Shown here in pieces: positions 41,852 through 50,239 of a stretch of 64,000 bases of DNA; within the stretch, counting starts at the first letter, position 1; each line of letters begins with the position of its first letter. This DNA comes from Gemmatimonadota bacterium. GTDB lineage: Bacteria; Gemmatimonadota; Gemmatimonadetes; Longimicrobiales; Gaopeijiaceae. Where the stretch lies: NCBI GenBank assembly GCA_022823225.1, contig JAJDXM010000092.1:124001-188000 (forward strand), given 5' to 3'. A program made the position numbers and the translations under genes. A model generated the notes under the pieces. It had not been told where the DNA came from, did not search any database, and worked only from the letters and a program-made list of their open reading frames with translations.

Positions 41852-43141
41852 CTAGAACCGCGGCCGGATCCGGTTGTTCACCACGTTGTTGTAGATCGAG
41901 CCGAACTGGTAGCTGAAGCCGACCTCGGTGCCGTAGTCGAAGTCGGTCGGGCGGCGCTGGAGCCGCAGCAGGGCTTCCTCGTCGGTGGCGCCGCGCGCGG
42001 AGAGGAAGATCTGGTCGTTCACCCAGGACGCGTTGCCCGAGATGTTGACCGTGAAGCCACGCACGATACGGATCGAGGCGCCGCCCCAGATGGAGAACCG
42101 TCGCAGATCGGTGTTGTGCAGGTAGAGCGAGCCGCTGGCGCCCGCGCCGACGCTGCCCCAGGGCTGCCTCTGGTCGAGCCGCAGCTCCATCGACTCCACC
42201 CAGCGAGTCTCCTGGGTAACGTCGTAGATGGTGCGCTCCGAGTACTCGTTGTGGATCCTCGCCATGCTGTACCGGAAGGTGAATGAGCGGCGAGTGGCTT
42301 CTTCATAGGGGAAGACGCTGAACTCGAGCGTCGGGGTCACCGCAAAGCGCCGGTTCAGGTTGTAGGTGAGGAAGCGCCCGGCCGAGCCCATAAGGCCCAC
42401 CGACCAGTGCTCGGCCAGGGAATAGACCAGCCGGGTATCCACGTTCCAGCGTGTGCGGTTGTCCCGGAACTCTCTGTCGGAAAGTTCGATCCGCAGCCGG
42501 TTGTGGGCCATTCCCCCGGAGATGCTGAACTTCCAGACCGGCGCGGTGCGCCAGGCCGTGAATCGGCCCTCTATTTCGGTGTTGGAACGAGACGACTCCC
42601 CGTCGATGCCGGCGCCGCCGTTGAGGCGGAACACCCAGAGATTCCAGGGGTCGTCCACCTCGTCCGCCGACACCATCCCCGCGACCTGCTCGGGCTGCCC
42701 GGCCGCGAGCGGGACGACCGATGCAAGTCCCCGGTACCCGGACCGGTTCGCGAACACGGCCAATCCCAGCGCCAGTGTGTTGGAGACGGCGTCCAGCACC
42801 TCCCGGTCGGTGTCGGTCGGGAGCGACTGATAGGTCTGCTGGTCGCTGTACGGGGACTCGTCGTCGGTCCCGATGAAATCCATGAGATATTCCCTGCCCC
42901 CGGCCCCCGTACCCTGGCTGGTCATGATGACGTGAACATCGGCGACATTCCTGTCGTTGACCCAGTTCACCCAGGCGATCTCGGTGCGGTAGTACTGGCG
43001 GTTGCAGCGCGGCCCGTTGCAGTCGAAGAAGACATTGGGGCGGGACTGCTGGGCACCGAGCGGCTCGGGGGACCAGCCGGCCAGCGCGACGGTGGCCGCG
43101 GCAACCGCGATTGCGCCCCGGACACCTGCCAGGCGGATCAC
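41852..43141 (-). CDS. Exported outer-membrane-type hypothetical protein, 429 aa
   Basis: The GTG at 43139-43141 overlaps the upstream stop (GTGA). Signal peptide AIAVAAATVALAGWSPEPLG, cleaved near GAQQS. The N-terminal region has a Cys pair, FFDCNGPRCNRQYYRTE, and AWVNWVNDRNVADVHVIMTS. The C-terminal ~230 residues alternate aromatic and polar strands (RWNVDTRLVYSLAEHWSVGL, WGGASIRIVRGFTVNISG) and end NNRIRPRF with a terminal Phe, typical of outer-membrane barrels. I do not know a named family. It is coupled to the 137-aa protein and helicase genes upstream. Confidence 0.75.
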   Translation of the reverse strand: MIRLAGVRGAIAVAAATVALAGWSPEPLGAQQSRPNVFFDCNGPRCNRQYYRTEIAWVNWVNDRNVADVHVIMTSQGTGAGGREYLMDFIGTDDESPYSDQQTYQSLPTDTDREVLDAVSNTLALGLAVFANRSGYRGLASVVPLAAGQPEQVAGMVSADEVDDPWNLWVFRLNGGAGIDGESSRSNTEIEGRFTAWRTAPVWKFSISGGMAHNRLRIELSDREFRDNRTRWNVDTRLVYSLAEHWSVGLMGSAGRFLTYNLNRRFAVTPTLEFSVFPYEEATRRSFTFRYSMARIHNEYSERTIYDVTQETRWVESMELRLDQRQPWGSVGAGASGSLYLHNTDLRRFSIWGGASIRIVRGFTVNISGNASWVNDQIFLSARGATDEEALLRLQRRPTDFDYGTEVGFSYQFGSIYNNVVNNRIRPRF

Positions 43142-43551
43142 CCTGGACCCGCCTTCCCGTAGATCCCCACCCTCAGCGGCGGATCCACCCACCAGTGGAA
43201 GTGGAAGCGATTCTCGCCGTCCACGATGACCCCTTCGCGCCGCTCGCGCGTCTTCGGCCAGTCGCTGCGGCCGTTCTTCACGACCAGCAGCTGTCCGGGC
43301 CCGAGCCGGGCAGCCCAATCCCGGAGACTGCTCTCCAGATTGGCCAGCAGTGTCCGCTCCGCGTCGCGCTGCACGTCGGCGTTGGTGTCCGCGGCCAACT
43401 CGCCCGCCGTCAGCTCCTCATAGTCCTGCTCCAGCTGGTCGGCGCCAATGGAGAAGGCGCGGTCGCGCTGAAAACCGATTTCGGTCATCGCGGTGGGATT
43501 GAAGTTGGGCCGGACGCTGTGGTACCACTTCCCGTATCGCCTGACGATCAT
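43138..43551 (-). CDS. Conserved hypothetical protein, 137 aa
   Basis: Begins MIVRRYGKWYHSVRPNFNP and contains MTEIGFQRDRAFSIGADQLE, a Glu/Asp-rich helical centre, and a C-terminus with ENRFHFHWWVDPPLRVGIYG. There is no signal peptide or membrane segment. The start overlaps the helicase stop (ATGA) and its own stop overlaps the next gene's GTG, so it is translated as the middle gene of a three-gene set. Function is unknown. Confidence 0.7.
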   Translation of the reverse strand: MIVRRYGKWYHSVRPNFNPTAMTEIGFQRDRAFSIGADQLEQDYEELTAGELAADTNADVQRDAERTLLANLESSLRDWAARLGPGQLLVVKNGRSDWPKTRERREGVIVDGENRFHFHWWVDPPLRVGIYGKAGPG

Positions 43552-44819
43552 TCCCCCGATTCCTCCGTGGCGTGACTCAGCAGTGCGGCCAGCTCCTCCG
43601 GATCGAGGCGCTCCCCGGCCTTGCTCCCAGTCCCCCGGCCCGACCGCGTACGCTTGCGCGAGCCGTCCTGCCGGTCGGTTGGCGAGCCACCCGCGAAGTC
43701 GAAGTCGGGGTGGTGGATCTTCTCCAGCTTGCGTTCCAGCTCGTACTCCAGAGTGCGGAAGGCGCCCAGGTCGGCGGAGGTGACGAAGGTGACGGCCTCG
43801 CCGGTCGCGCCTGCCCGGGCGGTGCGGCCCACGCGGTGGACGTAGTCGCCGGGGTCGAGCGGCACGTCATAGTTGACCACATGCGAGATCCCCTCGATGT
43901 CGAGGCCGCGCTGCGCGATGTCGGTGGCGACCAGCACCCGGACCTCGCCCTCGGTGAAGCGGTCGATCGCGCGGGTGCGGTGGCGCATGTGCCGATCCCC
44001 GTGGATCACGTCGCAGGAGATGCGGGCGCGGTCGAGCCGGGTCTTGAGGACGTCCGCGCCGACCTTGGTGCGGGTGAAGACGAGCACCTGGTCCCAGCCG
44101 GGCTGGTCCAGCAGGTGGACGAGAAGGTCGGGCTTGCGGTCAGGGCGCACCGAGTAGGCGATCTCGGATATGCCATGCGCGGTTGTGCCGGAGGGAGAAG
44201 CCTCGACCCACGCCGGGTCGCGGGTCATGCGGAGCGCCAGGGCGTGGACCGCGTTGGGCATCGTCGCCGAAAAGAGCAGCGTCTGGGGGCGCTTGCCGAG
44301 GCCTCTCACCACCGCCTCGATCTGTGGACGGAAGCCCATGTCGAGCATCCGGTCGGCTTCGTCGAGAATGAGCCGGCGGACGCCCTTCAGGCGGGCACTG
44401 CCCCGGTTCTGGAGGTCGATCAGGCGTCCGGGGGTCGCCACGATGACCTCGTCGCCCCGTTTCAGGGCGTCCAACTGGGGTCCGTAGGCCACGCCGCCGC
44501 AGATCACCGTGGACCGGAAGCTCGATCCCCGGGCAAGGGCCACCGTGTCCTCGGACACCTGCTGGGCGAGCTCCCTGGTCGGACAGAGAACCAGCACCTG
44601 AAGTCCCCCGCCGGCTTTCAGAGAATCGAGCACCGGAAGCATGAACGCTCCGGTCTTCCCCGTCCCTGTCCGGGCAATCCCCACCACGTCCCGTCCGGCC
44701 ATAACCAATGGGATGGCCTGTTGCTGAATGGGGGTCGGCGTGGTCCAACCCAATGCCTGCACAGCGGCCAGCCTGAGTTCGGACAGGCCGAAGGCGGCGA
44801 AGTCTGTAGGTTGCGTCAA
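43548..44819 (-). CDS. DEAD-box ATP-dependent RNA helicase
   Basis: 423 aa from the TTG at 44817-44819, the only fitting start. All helicase motifs are present: Q motif TPTPIQQQAIPL, Walker A ARTGTGKTGAF, CPTRELAQQV, TPGRLIDL, DEAD box LILDEADRMLDMGF, SAT in LLFSATMPN, VLVFTRTK, and HRVGRTARAG. The C-terminal tail is short, basic and low in complexity (DGSRKRTRSGRGTGSKAG). It unwinds structured RNA, perhaps in ribosome assembly or cold response. It leads the coupled set with the 137-aa protein and barrel protein, and is divergent from the phosphatase. Confidence 0.94.
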   Translation of the reverse strand: MTQPTDFAAFGLSELRLAAVQALGWTTPTPIQQQAIPLVMAGRDVVGIARTGTGKTGAFMLPVLDSLKAGGGLQVLVLCPTRELAQQVSEDTVALARGSSFRSTVICGGVAYGPQLDALKRGDEVIVATPGRLIDLQNRGSARLKGVRRLILDEADRMLDMGFRPQIEAVVRGLGKRPQTLLFSATMPNAVHALALRMTRDPAWVEASPSGTTAHGISEIAYSVRPDRKPDLLVHLLDQPGWDQVLVFTRTKVGADVLKTRLDRARISCDVIHGDRHMRHRTRAIDRFTEGEVRVLVATDIAQRGLDIEGISHVVNYDVPLDPGDYVHRVGRTARAGATGEAVTFVTSADLGAFRTLEYELERKLEKIHHPDFDFAGGSPTDRQDGSRKRTRSGRGTGSKAGERLDPEELAALLSHATEESGE

Positions 44820-44969
44820 ACCGTGTCCAGCTTCTCTGCGAATGCTTTCCGGGCGAGCGGCCACTGCTCTTCCTTCGCCCTGCTTCGGCCCTCGACCCGG
44901 CGCCGCTGGCCCGGTCTCGAATGTAACCGTGTCGGATGACGGGGGACACGGGCCGTGCCATCTTTGTTC

Positions 44970-45458
44970 ATGTCCTCCCATACCGTCTCGGTGCTGTTCG
45001 TCTGCCTCGGGAACATCTGCCGCTCCCCCCTCGCCGAGGGGGTCTTCATGGCTGCCGCGGAGTCCCGCGGTCTTGGTTCCCGATTCAATGCCGACTCGGC
45101 GGGGACCGCGGCCTACCATTCCGGCGAGCCCCCCGATCCCCGCACCACCGCCGTCGCGGCGCACCATGGGGTTCATCTCACCAGCGTGGCACGGCAGGTG
45201 ACGAGACGCGACTTCGAGCGGTTCGACCTCGTCGTCGCCATGGATCGAAGCAATCGGCGCTCGCTGGAGCGGTTGCGGGGCCACCGCCCCGGACCCGGGT
45301 CCGATGCGGCGCGGATCGTGATGATGCGCGACTTCGACCCCGACCTGGGCAGTCCGGACGTCCCCGACCCGTACTACGGCGGGGCGGAGGGATTCGAGCG
45401 CGTGTACCGGATCCTCGAGCGGTGCTGCGGGGGGCTGCTCGACGACCTCGCCGACTAG
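44970..45458 (+). CDS. Low-molecular-weight protein-tyrosine phosphatase
   Basis: 162 aa from the ATG at 44970; a GTG at 44955 is also in frame. VLFVCLGNICRSPLAEG is the P-loop: Cys12 nucleophile, Arg18 of CX5R and Ser19. DSAGTAAYHSGEPPDPRT is the second conserved block, FDLVVAMDRSNRRSL the third, and DVPDPYYGG supplies the general-acid Asp. It dephosphorylates tyrosines, often on BY-kinases that govern polysaccharide export; no such kinase is visible here. A full copy of the dispersed repeat follows the stop. Confidence 0.95.
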   Translation: MSSHTVSVLFVCLGNICRSPLAEGVFMAAAESRGLGSRFNADSAGTAAYHSGEPPDPRTTAVAAHHGVHLTSVARQVTRRDFERFDLVVAMDRSNRRSLERLRGHRPGPGSDAARIVMMRDFDPDLGSPDVPDPYYGGAEGFERVYRILERCCGGLLDDLAD

Positions 45459-45559: not shown

Positions 45560-46235
45560 GCCGCACCGCCACCATCAGCCCGTCACCCACCGGCAGAATC
45601 GTCGCGTCGAATCGCGGCTCGGAGGCCACGATCTCGCTGAAGCGGTTGAGCAGGGCGGCGATGCGGTCATCGCCGGGTTCGAGGACCCGGCCCTTCCAGA
45701 ACGCGTTGTCGGCCACGAGCAGTCCGCCGCGCCGCAGGAGCCGCGCGGCCTCCTCCATGTACTGCGCGTAGCGCTCCTTGTCCGCGTCCAGGAAGACCAT
45801 GTCGACGGATGCGTCCCGTCCCATCCGGGCCAGGGCCTCCGCGGCGTCCCCGACCCGAACCTCGACCCGGTCCGCCACGCCTGCTTCCTCCAGCGACCGT
45901 CGCGCAACCTCCGCGTGGCCGGGATTGATCTCGAGGGTGACGAGCCGGCCGCCGGGCGGGAGCGCGCGCGCGATCCAGATCGCGGAATAGCCCGCGAGCG
46001 TGCCGACCTCGACGACCCGCGTCGCACGGACGGCCCTCACGAGGATCTGCAGCGCGCGCGCGGTGGCGGGGGGGAGCTGGATCCGCGGCAGCCCCGCTGC
46101 GTCGGCGCGTGCCCGCACGCTGCGCAGCACATCGTCTTCTCCCGCGAAGAGGCGCTGGACGTAGAGGTCGAGCGCGTCATGGTCGAGTGCGGAGGGGTCG
46201 GGTGCCCCGGAAGGAACGCGCGCCTCCTCAGTCAC
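45555..46235 (-). CDS. SAM-dependent O-methyltransferase (CCoAOMT-like)
   Basis: 226 aa. The class I SAM fold shows RVVEVGTLAGYSAIWIARAL (motif I, with GTLAGYS), RLVTLEINPGHAEVARRSLE, VEVRVGDAAEALARM, and the metal-site segment DMVFLDADKERYAQYMEEA. LLVADNAFWKGRVLEPG has the family's DN pair, and FDATILPVGDGLMVAVRR ends the protein. These enzymes methylate hydroxyls of catechol-like or other small molecules with Mg2+; the bacterial substrate is unknown. Its start overlaps the aminotransferase stop by 8 nt, suggesting an operon. Confidence 0.92.
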   Translation of the reverse strand: MTEEARVPSGAPDPSALDHDALDLYVQRLFAGEDDVLRSVRARADAAGLPRIQLPPATARALQILVRAVRATRVVEVGTLAGYSAIWIARALPPGGRLVTLEINPGHAEVARRSLEEAGVADRVEVRVGDAAEALARMGRDASVDMVFLDADKERYAQYMEEAARLLRRGGLLVADNAFWKGRVLEPGDDRIAALLNRFSEIVASEPRFDATILPVGDGLMVAVRR

Positions 46236-47421
46236 CGGCCAGCACCGTCGCCATCCGGCGCACCCCTTCCTCGATCTCCTCGTCCGACGAAGCGGTGCTC
46301 ATGCGCGCGTAGCGCGGGTCGCCGAACGCCTCTCCCGGCACGATGGCCACGCCGGTCTCCTCCAGGATTCGTGCGCAGACATCGTTGGCGCAGGTGAGAT
46401 TGCCGTCGAAGATCCCGTCCACACGAAAGTACAGGTAGAAGGCCCCTTCCGGGCGGACATACGCGCACGCGGGGATCAGTTCGTCGAAGAGGCGCGTGAC
46501 CAGGTCGCGGCGGCGGCGGAAAGCTTCGAACATATGCGCCCTGGAACGTGTTGCGGCGCCCCCCTGCGCGAGCCCCTCCAGGGCGGCCACCTGCGACGGC
46601 GTGGCGGCGTTCAGCGAAACGTGGCTCTGGAAGGCGGACATCCTGGCGGCGAGCTCGGCGGTCGTGTAGGAGAAGCCGACCCGCCAGCCCGTCATTGCAT
46701 ACGCCTTGGACATCCCGTTGGTCACGACCAGGTGGCCGACCGAGGCGGGATCGAGGTCGAGCGCCCCGGGCGCCTTCGCCCCGCCCCCTCCGAAATGGAT
46801 CTCCTGGTAGATCTCGTCGGAGATCAGCGTGACGCCGCGGTCCCTGGCCCACTCGGCCAGGGTGCCCAGCTGCCCCTTCGTGTAGACGGCACCGGTCGGG
46901 TTGGAAGGGGTGGAGATGATCAGGCCCCGGGTACGCGCCGTCGCCGCCCCTTCGAGATCGTCCGGGGTGAGACGGAAGTCGCGGTCTTCGCTGCCCGCCA
47001 CCGGCACCGGCTCCGCCCGCGCCAGCGTCACCATCTCCGGGTACGAAGTCCAGTAGGGCGCCCCGATCAGCACCTCGTCGCCGGGTCCGAAGAGACAGAA
47101 GCAAGCGTTGAAAAGCGACTGCTTTGCGCCTGCGGACACGACGACCCTGGCGGCCTCCGCCGGGTGGTCCGTCCCGTCGGTCATGTAGCGCGCCGCGGCC
47201 GCCCTCAACTCCGGGAGTCCCGCGGCGGGCGTATAGCGGGTGCGGCCGCCTCGGATCCCCTCGATCGCAGCCGACGAGATCCATTCGGGGGTGTCGAAAT
47301 CGGGCTCGCCGGCGCTGAGGTTGATGATATCCCTCCCGGCCGCCGCAAGCTTCTTTGCGAGGGTGCTCACCGCGACGGTGGCCGATGGCGTAAGTCTGGC
47401 AATGTTCTCGGACAAGGTCAT
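46228..47421 (-). CDS. Class I/II pyridoxal-phosphate aminotransferase (aspartate aminotransferase-type)
   Basis: 397 aa from the ATG at 47419-47421; an in-frame GTG at 47457 would extend it. Fold-type I features: IINLSAGEPDFDTPEWI, RYTPAAGLPELRAA, SAGAKQSLFNACFCLFGPGD, SNPTGAVYTKGQL, SDEIYQEIHF, and the PLP-lysine segment NGMSKAYAMTGWRVGF, with the phosphate Arg in its R. It probably transaminates aspartate or a related amino acid. It is followed by, and overlaps, the O-methyltransferase, and is divergent from the DsbA-like gene. Confidence 0.94.
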   Translation of the reverse strand: MTLSENIARLTPSATVAVSTLAKKLAAAGRDIINLSAGEPDFDTPEWISSAAIEGIRGGRTRYTPAAGLPELRAAAARYMTDGTDHPAEAARVVVSAGAKQSLFNACFCLFGPGDEVLIGAPYWTSYPEMVTLARAEPVPVAGSEDRDFRLTPDDLEGAATARTRGLIISTPSNPTGAVYTKGQLGTLAEWARDRGVTLISDEIYQEIHFGGGGAKAPGALDLDPASVGHLVVTNGMSKAYAMTGWRVGFSYTTAELAARMSAFQSHVSLNAATPSQVAALEGLAQGGAATRSRAHMFEAFRRRRDLVTRLFDELIPACAYVRPEGAFYLYFRVDGIFDGNLTCANDVCARILEETGVAIVPGEAFGDPRYARMSTASSDEEIEEGVRRMATVLAGD

Positions 47422-47595
47422 CTTGGAACCTGGTGGTTTTCTGTTGGAGGTGGTCACAGGAGCCTCGGACGATTCGCCGGGGCGACCGCACCTGAGCCGA
47501 GCCGACAATAAGACCGGTAACCGTTATGTTCGCAACCCCGCCCGTCGCTCCCACGGAGCCCGACGGCCCACGGCCAAGTCCAATGGAGCAGCGAG

Positions 47596-48268: not shown

Positions 48269-48571
48269 ATGGCAGGGTATCAGCGAAAAACGGCTCTGGG
48301 ACCCCGGGAAATCCTGGAAAAGGCCGCGGAGCATCTTCCCGAATTCATCGGTCTGCAGTGCTCGCGGAAGTCGTCGCACGGGGCGACCTACACAGGTCAG
48401 GAGGGCACGGTCACCATTCAGGCGCATCGCCACGGCCCCTTCACCGACGTCACGGCCCAGACCGACCGGCTGAGGACATCGCGCATGGACTACGAGATTC
48501 AGCGCTTCCTCAACATGCTGCCCTACGAGCACGGCGACGCCGGCGGCCCGGGATCGGGAGAGCGCGGCTGA
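48269..48571 (+). CDS. Conserved hypothetical protein, 100 aa
   Basis: The ATG at 48269 follows AGGGAC. The product is soluble; GPREILEKAAEHLPEFIGLQ looks helical, followed by a beta-rich part (ATYTGQEGTVTIQAHRHGPF) and a helix in TSRMDYEIQRFLNMLPYE. No family is recognised. It lies 10 nt downstream of the DsbA-like gene and ahead of the helicase-like gene, in the same direction, so the three may form one transcript. Confidence 0.65.
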   Translation: MAGYQRKTALGPREILEKAAEHLPEFIGLQCSRKSSHGATYTGQEGTVTIQAHRHGPFTDVTAQTDRLRTSRMDYEIQRFLNMLPYEHGDAGGPGSGERG

Positions 48572-48586
48572 GGTGCGACCGGACCC

Positions 48587-48606
48587 TGGCAGCCCGTGGA
48601 CAAGTC
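48587..48606 (-). repeat. Possible fragment of dispersed repeat core
   Basis: Read on the minus strand the segment contains GACTTGTCCACGGGCTGCC, similar to GGTTGTCCACGGGCTG at 21978. It lies just before the helicase-like gene's likely start. It is too short for a firm call. Confidence 0.25.
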
Positions 48607-48622: not shown

Positions 48623-50239
48623 ATGAACTCCTTCGACGATCTTCCGCTCGGCCCGGAGGCCGTGGCGTCGCTGGCGGCCGAGGGGATCGAGGTTCCCACG
48701 CCCTTCCAGGCCGCCGCCATACCGGTGATCGCTCGCGGAAACGACCTGCTCGGAAGGGCGGGACCCGGAAGCGGCACCCTGGTCGCGTATGGCGCGCCCC
48801 TCCTCGACCGCCTCGAGTGCGGCGCCGGATCACCCGTTTGCCTTGTGATCTGCACCGGCGCCCGGCAGGCCACGGACCTTGCCCGCTCCTTCGCGCGGCT
48901 GTGTGAGGCCTCCGGCGCCCGCGCGGCTGCGCTCGCTCCGTCCTGGAACCTGCCGGAGCGCGCCGACTTCCTCTTCGTGCCCGCCGACCGGTTCGGCGCC
49001 CTATACGATGGTACGGTAGCTGTCGCGACTGTCGGCGCGGTCGTCCTTCACGACGGCGACGGGGTGCTGCGCGGCGTGCGGACCGACCGGATGGAGACCT
49101 TCCTGCGGGGGTTGCCGCGCGAGTGCCAGCGAATCTTCTGCGGCCTCCCCTTCGGACCGGATCTTCGATCGCTCGCGCGGCGCTTCACCCGCCACGCCGT
49201 GACGATTCCGCCCGGCGCCGGCGCGGCGCGGCGGGATGGGGGCTCGACCGGAAAGGCAAGGGCACCCCGGACGGCGACGGACAGCCGCTCCGGCCCGCAG
49301 CGCGGCCTCCACTTTGTGGTCGTGGAGGGAGACCGCGCGGAGGCGGTGCTGGAGCTGGCCGCCTCGCTCCTGGAGGATCCCGGCACGGTGCGCCACGTGC
49401 TCCTGCACACCGCATCCGCGGATCAGGCAGCCGACCTGGGAGACTTTCTCGCCATGCACGGCTACCACTCCGGCCCCCCTGGCGACGAGACCGTGCCAGT
49501 GTGGCTGTCTTCCGGCGAGGACGAAGCGGCGGCCGCTGTGCTCGACGCGATGGACGGCGCGGAAAGCGTGGCGACGGTGTCGTGCTCGGTGCCGGGAGGC
49601 GCGCCCTCGGCACGGCGTCGCCACCTCGGCGCGGGACCCGCGTGGGCGCTCATTGCCGTGCGCGAACTCGGTCACCTGCGTGAGGTGGCGGCGGGAGCGG
49701 GACTGCGTCTCAAACGCGTTCGCCCCGTTCGCCCGCAGCGTGTGTCGGCAAGACTGGACGAGTTGGCCGACCGGTTGCACGCAGTGCTCAGCGGGCCGGA
49801 GACCGCACCGTACTACCTGCTCGTCGAATCGCTCCTGGACCGCTTCACGGCGGCGGAGGTGGCCGCGGCGTCCCTGCTGCTCCTCGATCGCGAAGCGGCC
49901 GCGAAGAAGACGCCCCCGAAGGAGGGCGTACCCGAACCGTGGTCGCGCCTGTTCGTGTCGGCTGGCCAGCACGACGAGATCGGGCCGCGCGAACTCCTGG
50001 GCGCCATCACCAGCGAATCGGGGATCGCAGGGAACCGCGTCGGGCGCATCGATGTCCGTGAGCGCCACTCACTGGTCGAAGTGCGCGAAAGCGCGGCCAG
50101 CAAGGTGATCGCGGCTCTCAATGGAACCACGCTGGGAGGCCGCGCCCTGCGCGTGGACTACGACCGGCCCCGCGACCGGCGGCGCGGCAAGGGGGGGCCG
50201 AAGGGGCCACCGAGGAAACCGGGACGACGTCCCTCGTAG
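48623..50239 (+). CDS. Catalytically dead DEAD-box-like protein with C-terminal DbpA RNA-binding domain
   Basis: 538 aa from the ATG at 48623; an in-frame GTG at 48596 is possible. The helicase layout is recognisable: FDDLPLGPEAVASLAAEGIE, a Q-motif-like VPTPFQAAAIPVIARGNDLL, and two RecA-like halves. But Walker A reads GRAGPGSGTLVAYG (no Lys-Thr), the DEAD site reads VVLHDGDGVL, SAT is absent, and HRxGRxxR is lost. The C-terminal DbpA-type RNA-binding domain is intact: SRLFVSAGQHDEIGPRELLG to LGGRALRVDYDRP, then a basic tail. The frame is uninterrupted, so it is not a recent pseudogene. It probably binds RNA without unwinding it. Confidence 0.85.
   Translation: MNSFDDLPLGPEAVASLAAEGIEVPTPFQAAAIPVIARGNDLLGRAGPGSGTLVAYGAPLLDRLECGAGSPVCLVICTGARQATDLARSFARLCEASGARAAALAPSWNLPERADFLFVPADRFGALYDGTVAVATVGAVVLHDGDGVLRGVRTDRMETFLRGLPRECQRIFCGLPFGPDLRSLARRFTRHAVTIPPGAGAARRDGGSTGKARAPRTATDSRSGPQRGLHFVVVEGDRAEAVLELAASLLEDPGTVRHVLLHTASADQAADLGDFLAMHGYHSGPPGDETVPVWLSSGEDEAAAAVLDAMDGAESVATVSCSVPGGAPSARRRHLGAGPAWALIAVRELGHLREVAAGAGLRLKRVRPVRPQRVSARLDELADRLHAVLSGPETAPYYLLVESLLDRFTAAEVAAASLLLLDREAAAKKTPPKEGVPEPWSRLFVSAGQHDEIGPRELLGAITSESGIAGNRVGRIDVRERHSLVEVRESAASKVIAALNGTTLGGRALRVDYDRPRDRRRGKGGPKGPPRKPGRRPS

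Follow-up and report, generated by a model that had tools for sequence, protein, structure and literature searches.

A gene in the 64,000-nucleotide window analysed here (Gemmatimonadota bacterium, contig JAJDXM010000092.1, positions 124,001 to 188,000) encodes a protein with the architecture of a DEAD-box RNA helicase—two RecA lobes, putative dimerisation helices and a DbpA-type RNA-binding domain (RBD)—from which the catalytic motifs have been lost. Judging from its sequence and those of its homologues, the product is almost certainly a pseudoenzyme maintained by selection, and loss of ATPase activity is predicted from the loss of the motifs. The gene and its homologues are referred to below as pseudohelicases, and the coordinates of all features are collected in Table 1.

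The homologue alignments begin at the ATG, and a GTG at 48596 is a possible, less likely alternative start. In Pfam, the DbpA RBD (PF03880) matches residues 442–511 with an E-value of 8.7e-21 (74.2 bits against a cut-off of 25.6), and the DEAD domain falls below threshold (24 bits; cut-off 26). Over 70 aligned members the DbpA domain is found in every one and the DeaD dimerisation domain in 38 (E-values up to 0.01), and the C-terminal helicase domain (Helicase_C) is matched in none. The initial annotation of this stretch had described a full-length DEAD-box-like protein with its motifs lost, its DbpA domain intact, and the Q-motif region and two-RecA layout remaining; the open frame, the Pfam matches and the alignments confirm this description, with the Q motif intact and both lobes present in the structural model described below.

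Conservation of the motif residues was tabulated across the genus and families of the class, the more degenerate members being drawn from families f4, f5 and f7. The DEAD glutamate is present in 0% of all pseudohelicase groups, the second and third arginines of motif VI are lost nearly everywhere, as, for the most part, are the RNA-contact arginines in motifs Ia and Ib. The Walker A lysine is present in 0% of the genus and of family f1 and in 100% of f3, where the whole GSGKT or GAGKT loop is retained; this lysine is gone also in f2, and the genus and f1 lack both the phosphate-binding lysine and threonine. In the window protein the Q motif residues F4, P25–T26 and Q29 are intact; across the order they hardly vary, nor do G49 and G51 of the former P-loop. 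The Q-motif glutamine is present in 100% of f1, f2 and f3 and lost in f4, f5 and f7. There is thus a surviving gradient, with one family that keeps the P-loop lysine, others that keep the Q motif only, and outer families that keep neither.

The conserved residues F4, P25, Q29, G49 and G51, together with the complete loop of f3, would be expected if the protein were a nucleotide-responsive switch. It would then bind, but not hydrolyse, an adenine nucleotide by way of its Q motif and glycine-rich loop, and binding would set the position of the two lobes or of the RBD. The absence of the phosphate-binding lysine and threonine from the genus and f1 argues against this, and because f4, f5 and f7 have lost the Q motif too, nucleotide binding cannot be the common function of the family; we consider such a switch improbable.

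Two further observations concern the RecA1 lobe. The former DEAD site is not drifting freely in the genus, where it has become a new invariant HDGDG (49049-49063). Some f4 members (L165 and L166; genomes G060, G076 and G078) are only about 400–456 codons long and keep the DbpA domain, as if the dead RecA1 lobe were being worn away.

A model built with AlphaFold2 from the 70 aligned homologues has a mean predicted local distance difference test score (pLDDT) of 88.9, with the RecA lobes and RBD above 90 and the dimerisation helices at about 72–79; the modelling that the initial annotation had called for thus returns a confident DEAD-box fold. RecA1 of the model matches that of DeaD (5gju) with a Z score of 28.2 and 1.9 Å over 195 residues. 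The best Foldseek match is DbpA (7pli) over 543 columns; its global superposition is poor (root-mean-square deviation 23.5 Å), as expected if the lobes are differently placed. The family profile matches CshA at 3.1e-51 and DbpA at 1.3e-42. At the RNA-binding end, G474 and I476 are invariant. In YxiN the residues aligned with them are G437 and I439, which belong to a trio that recognises a guanine through main-chain amides (PMC3695512). The RNA recognition motif of DbpA binds hairpin 92 of 23S ribosomal RNA (rRNA) (PMC7973409).

Most genomes of the family, order and class carry the pseudohelicase gene. Within the genus it occurs in 21 of 22 further species (66–76% identity), and the genome search gave full-length matches at about 38–45% identity across the family and about 30–39% across the order; the DbpA domain is absent from six genomes of another Gemmatimonadota group. 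A scan of contigs yielded further homologues, from which the best 80 loci were taken, with 53 further loci beyond these. The titles of these 80 are Gemmatimonadota, Gemmatimonas, Longimicrobiales and similar, with the exception of four titled Gammaproteobacteria. These four metagenome bins (L084, L087, L091 and L108) carry a Gemmatimonadota gene block around the pseudohelicase gene and are probably mislabelled. An assembly or contamination artefact can be rejected, since single-contig genomes (G001, G022, G026, G114 and G119) carry the gene. All 69 homologues taken from the contig scan are uninterrupted, at 503 to 615 codons.

Ratios of amino-acid to silent change (dN/dS) were calculated by the Nei-Gojobori method, taking medians of the 40 closest pairs among 22 species of the genus. 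The ratio is 0.25 for the whole gene, lowest in the RBD, close to 0.2 in both RecA lobes and the dimerisation helices (Table 1), and higher in the second linker (0.43) and tail (0.52). With the same method, a second set of loci from the genus gave 0.233 for the pseudohelicase and from 0.146 (RhlE-like) to 0.465 (DsbA-like) for its neighbours. Purifying selection on the gene is clear, the RBD is its most constrained part, and the dead RecA lobes are themselves under selection. Such selection over 22 species, together with the class-wide conservation, exceeds what chance would produce.

In a tree of 65 proteins all 48 pseudohelicases form one clade (Shimodaira–Hasegawa-like approximate likelihood ratio test support 100), and 16 active DeaD-type paralogues lie in a separate clade (96). 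Nine members from f4, f5 and f7 have an aminotransferase gene at a distance of about 2 kb; it is a homologue of that at 46228-47508 of the window and is oriented likewise, and this shared position supports orthology. The sequence comparisons indicate one ancient loss of the catalytic motifs that was then inherited. We propose an early duplication, within the class, of a DeaD/DbpA-type RNA helicase; one copy would have lost ATP hydrolysis (the DEAD glutamate, motif III, and motifs V and VI) ahead of the divergence of the families, and selection would then have kept this copy.

In favour of a decaying pseudogene, open only by chance, are a dN roughly double that of the neighbouring RhlE-like helicase in the same species pairs and the loss of the gene from G011 (2.8 Mb) and G138 (2.6 Mb), both reduced genomes, in which no pseudohelicase remnant is detectable beside the 100-residue gene that adjoins it elsewhere (loci L175 and L176). 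The uninterrupted frames, the low dN/dS even in the dead lobes, the single ancient origin, the class-wide retention and the confident fold all speak against decay, which is hardly credible; we reject it on the open frames, the dN/dS and the single pseudohelicase clade. The initial annotation had proposed selection for RNA binding without unwinding, and had named intact motifs at this locus in relatives, with disruptions in this copy, as the signature of decay. The outcome goes against decay: the motif losses are common to all homologues and the proportion of amino-acid change is low, and these, with the open frames and the constraint on the RBD, support that proposal well.

As to how such a protein might act, an ATP-independent RNA-binding scaffold is the mechanism that we favour, with moderate confidence. 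The RBD and basic tail would grip a structured RNA, two copies would join through the helical domain as a bivalent dimer—the protein is probably dimeric—and the dead RecA lobes may serve as a platform for contacts with proteins or ribonucleoprotein (RNP), since the canonical RNA-contact arginines of motifs Ia and Ib have been lost as well. Among candidate RNAs, 23S rRNA in a pre-50S particle would come first, given the analogy with DbpA and the guanine-binding loop, typical of DbpA-type domains, that is preserved in the RBD. We put forward tentatively this plausible target, which the initial annotation had also suggested, and other structured RNAs are possible. Several points weigh against parts of this interpretation. 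The residue of YxiN that contacts the hairpin 92 loop, K427, corresponds to S464 in the window protein, so hairpin 92 specificity cannot be assumed. The match to the DeaD dimerisation domain (PF25399) is weak in the window protein (16.3 bits; cut-off 23), which bears on the dimer. The tree came from a quick search and has long inner branches, and the inner branching order is therefore less sure. Finally, the loss from G011 and G138 indicates that the gene is useful but not essential.

The genomic setting bears on both the scaffold and the alternative of a helicase partner. In every genome of the genus but G011, which has none, the pseudohelicase supplies the only DbpA domain; a PF00270 scan of four genus genomes gave a single strong canonical DEAD-box helicase in each, the RhlE-like one. 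Most f3 genomes have another DbpA-domain protein besides, with all motifs intact in those examined. The pseudohelicase could be a cofactor or competitor of an active DEAD-box helicase, activating or restraining it either by occupying its RNA site or by pairing with it via the dimerisation helices. The DeaD-type ancestry, the active paralogue in f3, the RhlE-like gene close by in most f1 loci, and the proposal that Utp25 is a helicase cofactor (PMC9539457) are consistent with such a role. It is nevertheless unlikely: the genus has no active DbpA-domain helicase with which to compete, the RhlE-like gene does not adjoin f4, f5 and f7 members within the DNA pieces compared, and G011 keeps the RhlE-like gene though the pseudohelicase is lost. 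A tight link between the two genes is not general, and since it is limited to nearer relatives, the suggestion in the initial annotation of a decoy or regulator of the active helicase nearby is weak, the pseudohelicase persisting class-wide without that neighbour; the distance between them was also given as 4 kb and is 3.3 kb.

Returning to the scaffold, the only remaining DbpA-domain protein of the genus being catalytically dead, a large-subunit assembly step that is elsewhere driven by an ATP-dependent helicase might here be done by a passive scaffold. The broader proposition, that an rRNA assembly factor of DEAD-box origin works in this class without ATP and that the motor has been fully replaced in this genus, is one that we regard as doubtful.

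Table 1. Features of the pseudohelicase gene and its surroundings (window positions).
Feature	Position	Strand	Basis or remark
Pseudohelicase gene, 538 aa	48623..50239	+	ATG 48623 to stop at 50239, frame open throughout
RecA1 lobe, residues 1-200; catalytic motifs lost, fold kept	48623..49222	+	AlphaFold model; DeaD 5gju match; dN/dS 0.18
Q motif PTPFQ intact, residues 25-29	48695..48709	+	Q 100% in f1, f2, f3
Dead P-loop GPGSGTL, residues 47-53	48761..48781	+	Lys and Thr lost; G49 and G51 invariant
Former DEAD site, now HDGD, residues 143-146	49049..49060	+	DEAD glutamate 0% in every pseudohelicase group
Former SAT motif, now GLP, residues 174-176	49142..49150	+	Residue table
RecA2 lobe, residues 226-370; motif V unrecognisable	49298..49732	+	AlphaFold model; dN/dS 0.23 (residues 226-375); Helicase_C in 0/70 members
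Motif VI position; about 6 residues deleted, including second and third arginines	49613..49642	+	Alignment; residue table
DeaD-like dimerisation helices, residues 371-430	49733..49912	+	Weak PF25399; 38/70 members match; dN/dS 0.22
DbpA RBD, residues 440-515	49940..50167	+	PF03880 8.7e-21; 70/70 members; dN/dS 0.10
Basic disordered C-terminal tail, residues 516-538	50168..50236	+	Low pLDDT; R/K-rich sequence
Conserved 100-aa protein, directly upstream	48269..48571	+	Neighbour, not obligate partner
Active RhlE-like helicase	43548-45284	-	3.3 kb from pseudohelicase gene
137-aa frame beside RhlE-like helicase	43138-43551	-	No Pfam or NCBIfam match; 29-86% identity in many relatives

The 100-residue protein encoded directly upstream has no Pfam or NCBIfam match. 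It is more conserved than the adjoining pseudohelicase (mostly 60–89% identity over f1 loci) and is found in most genomes of the order, with distant weak matches in other families of the class. The two genes do not constitute an obligate pair: in G026, a single-contig genome, the pseudohelicase is present and no neighbour is detected, G011 and G138 have the neighbour only, and in G036 the two genes are on different contigs.

The closest known systems are the DbpA/YxiN, DeaD and Hera helicases (E. coli DbpA, PDB 7pli and 7pmq; B. subtilis YxiN RBD, 3moj; T. thermophilus Hera), which have the same order of parts, two RecA lobes and then a DbpA-type RBD. DeaD, CshA and Hera also have a dimerisation domain, and the guanine-binding loop of the DbpA/YxiN-type RBD is kept; unlike DbpA, YxiN, DeaD and Hera, the window protein lacks all of the ATP-hydrolysis motifs and the RNA-contact arginines of the RecA lobes, and motifs V and VI are largely deleted. 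Pseudohelicases are rarely described, Utp25 having been called only the second to be proposed in a 2022 paper (PMC9539457), and no bacterial DEAD-box RNA pseudohelicase was found in a literature search, most subscription papers being outside its reach. The present group would be a whole bacterial family of them, in which extant members span the range from an intact P-loop to none and some genomes also encode active paralogues, and it would allow tests of which work of DEAD-box proteins needs ATP and which needs binding alone.

Utp25/Def of the eukaryotic small-subunit processome (PMC9539457) is alike in its DEAD-box fold, vestigial motifs, retention by selection and RNA-related role. It differs in being a eukaryotic nucleolar protein without a DbpA-type RBD, and Utp25 is essential in yeast whereas the gene described here is lost in some reduced genomes; the two likely arose independently. 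PriA of Deinococcus radiodurans (PMC4504706) is likewise a bacterial helicase that has lost ATPase and unwinding activity and kept nucleic-acid binding, but it is a DNA replication-restart protein, and the loss of activity is biochemical there and deduced from sequence here.
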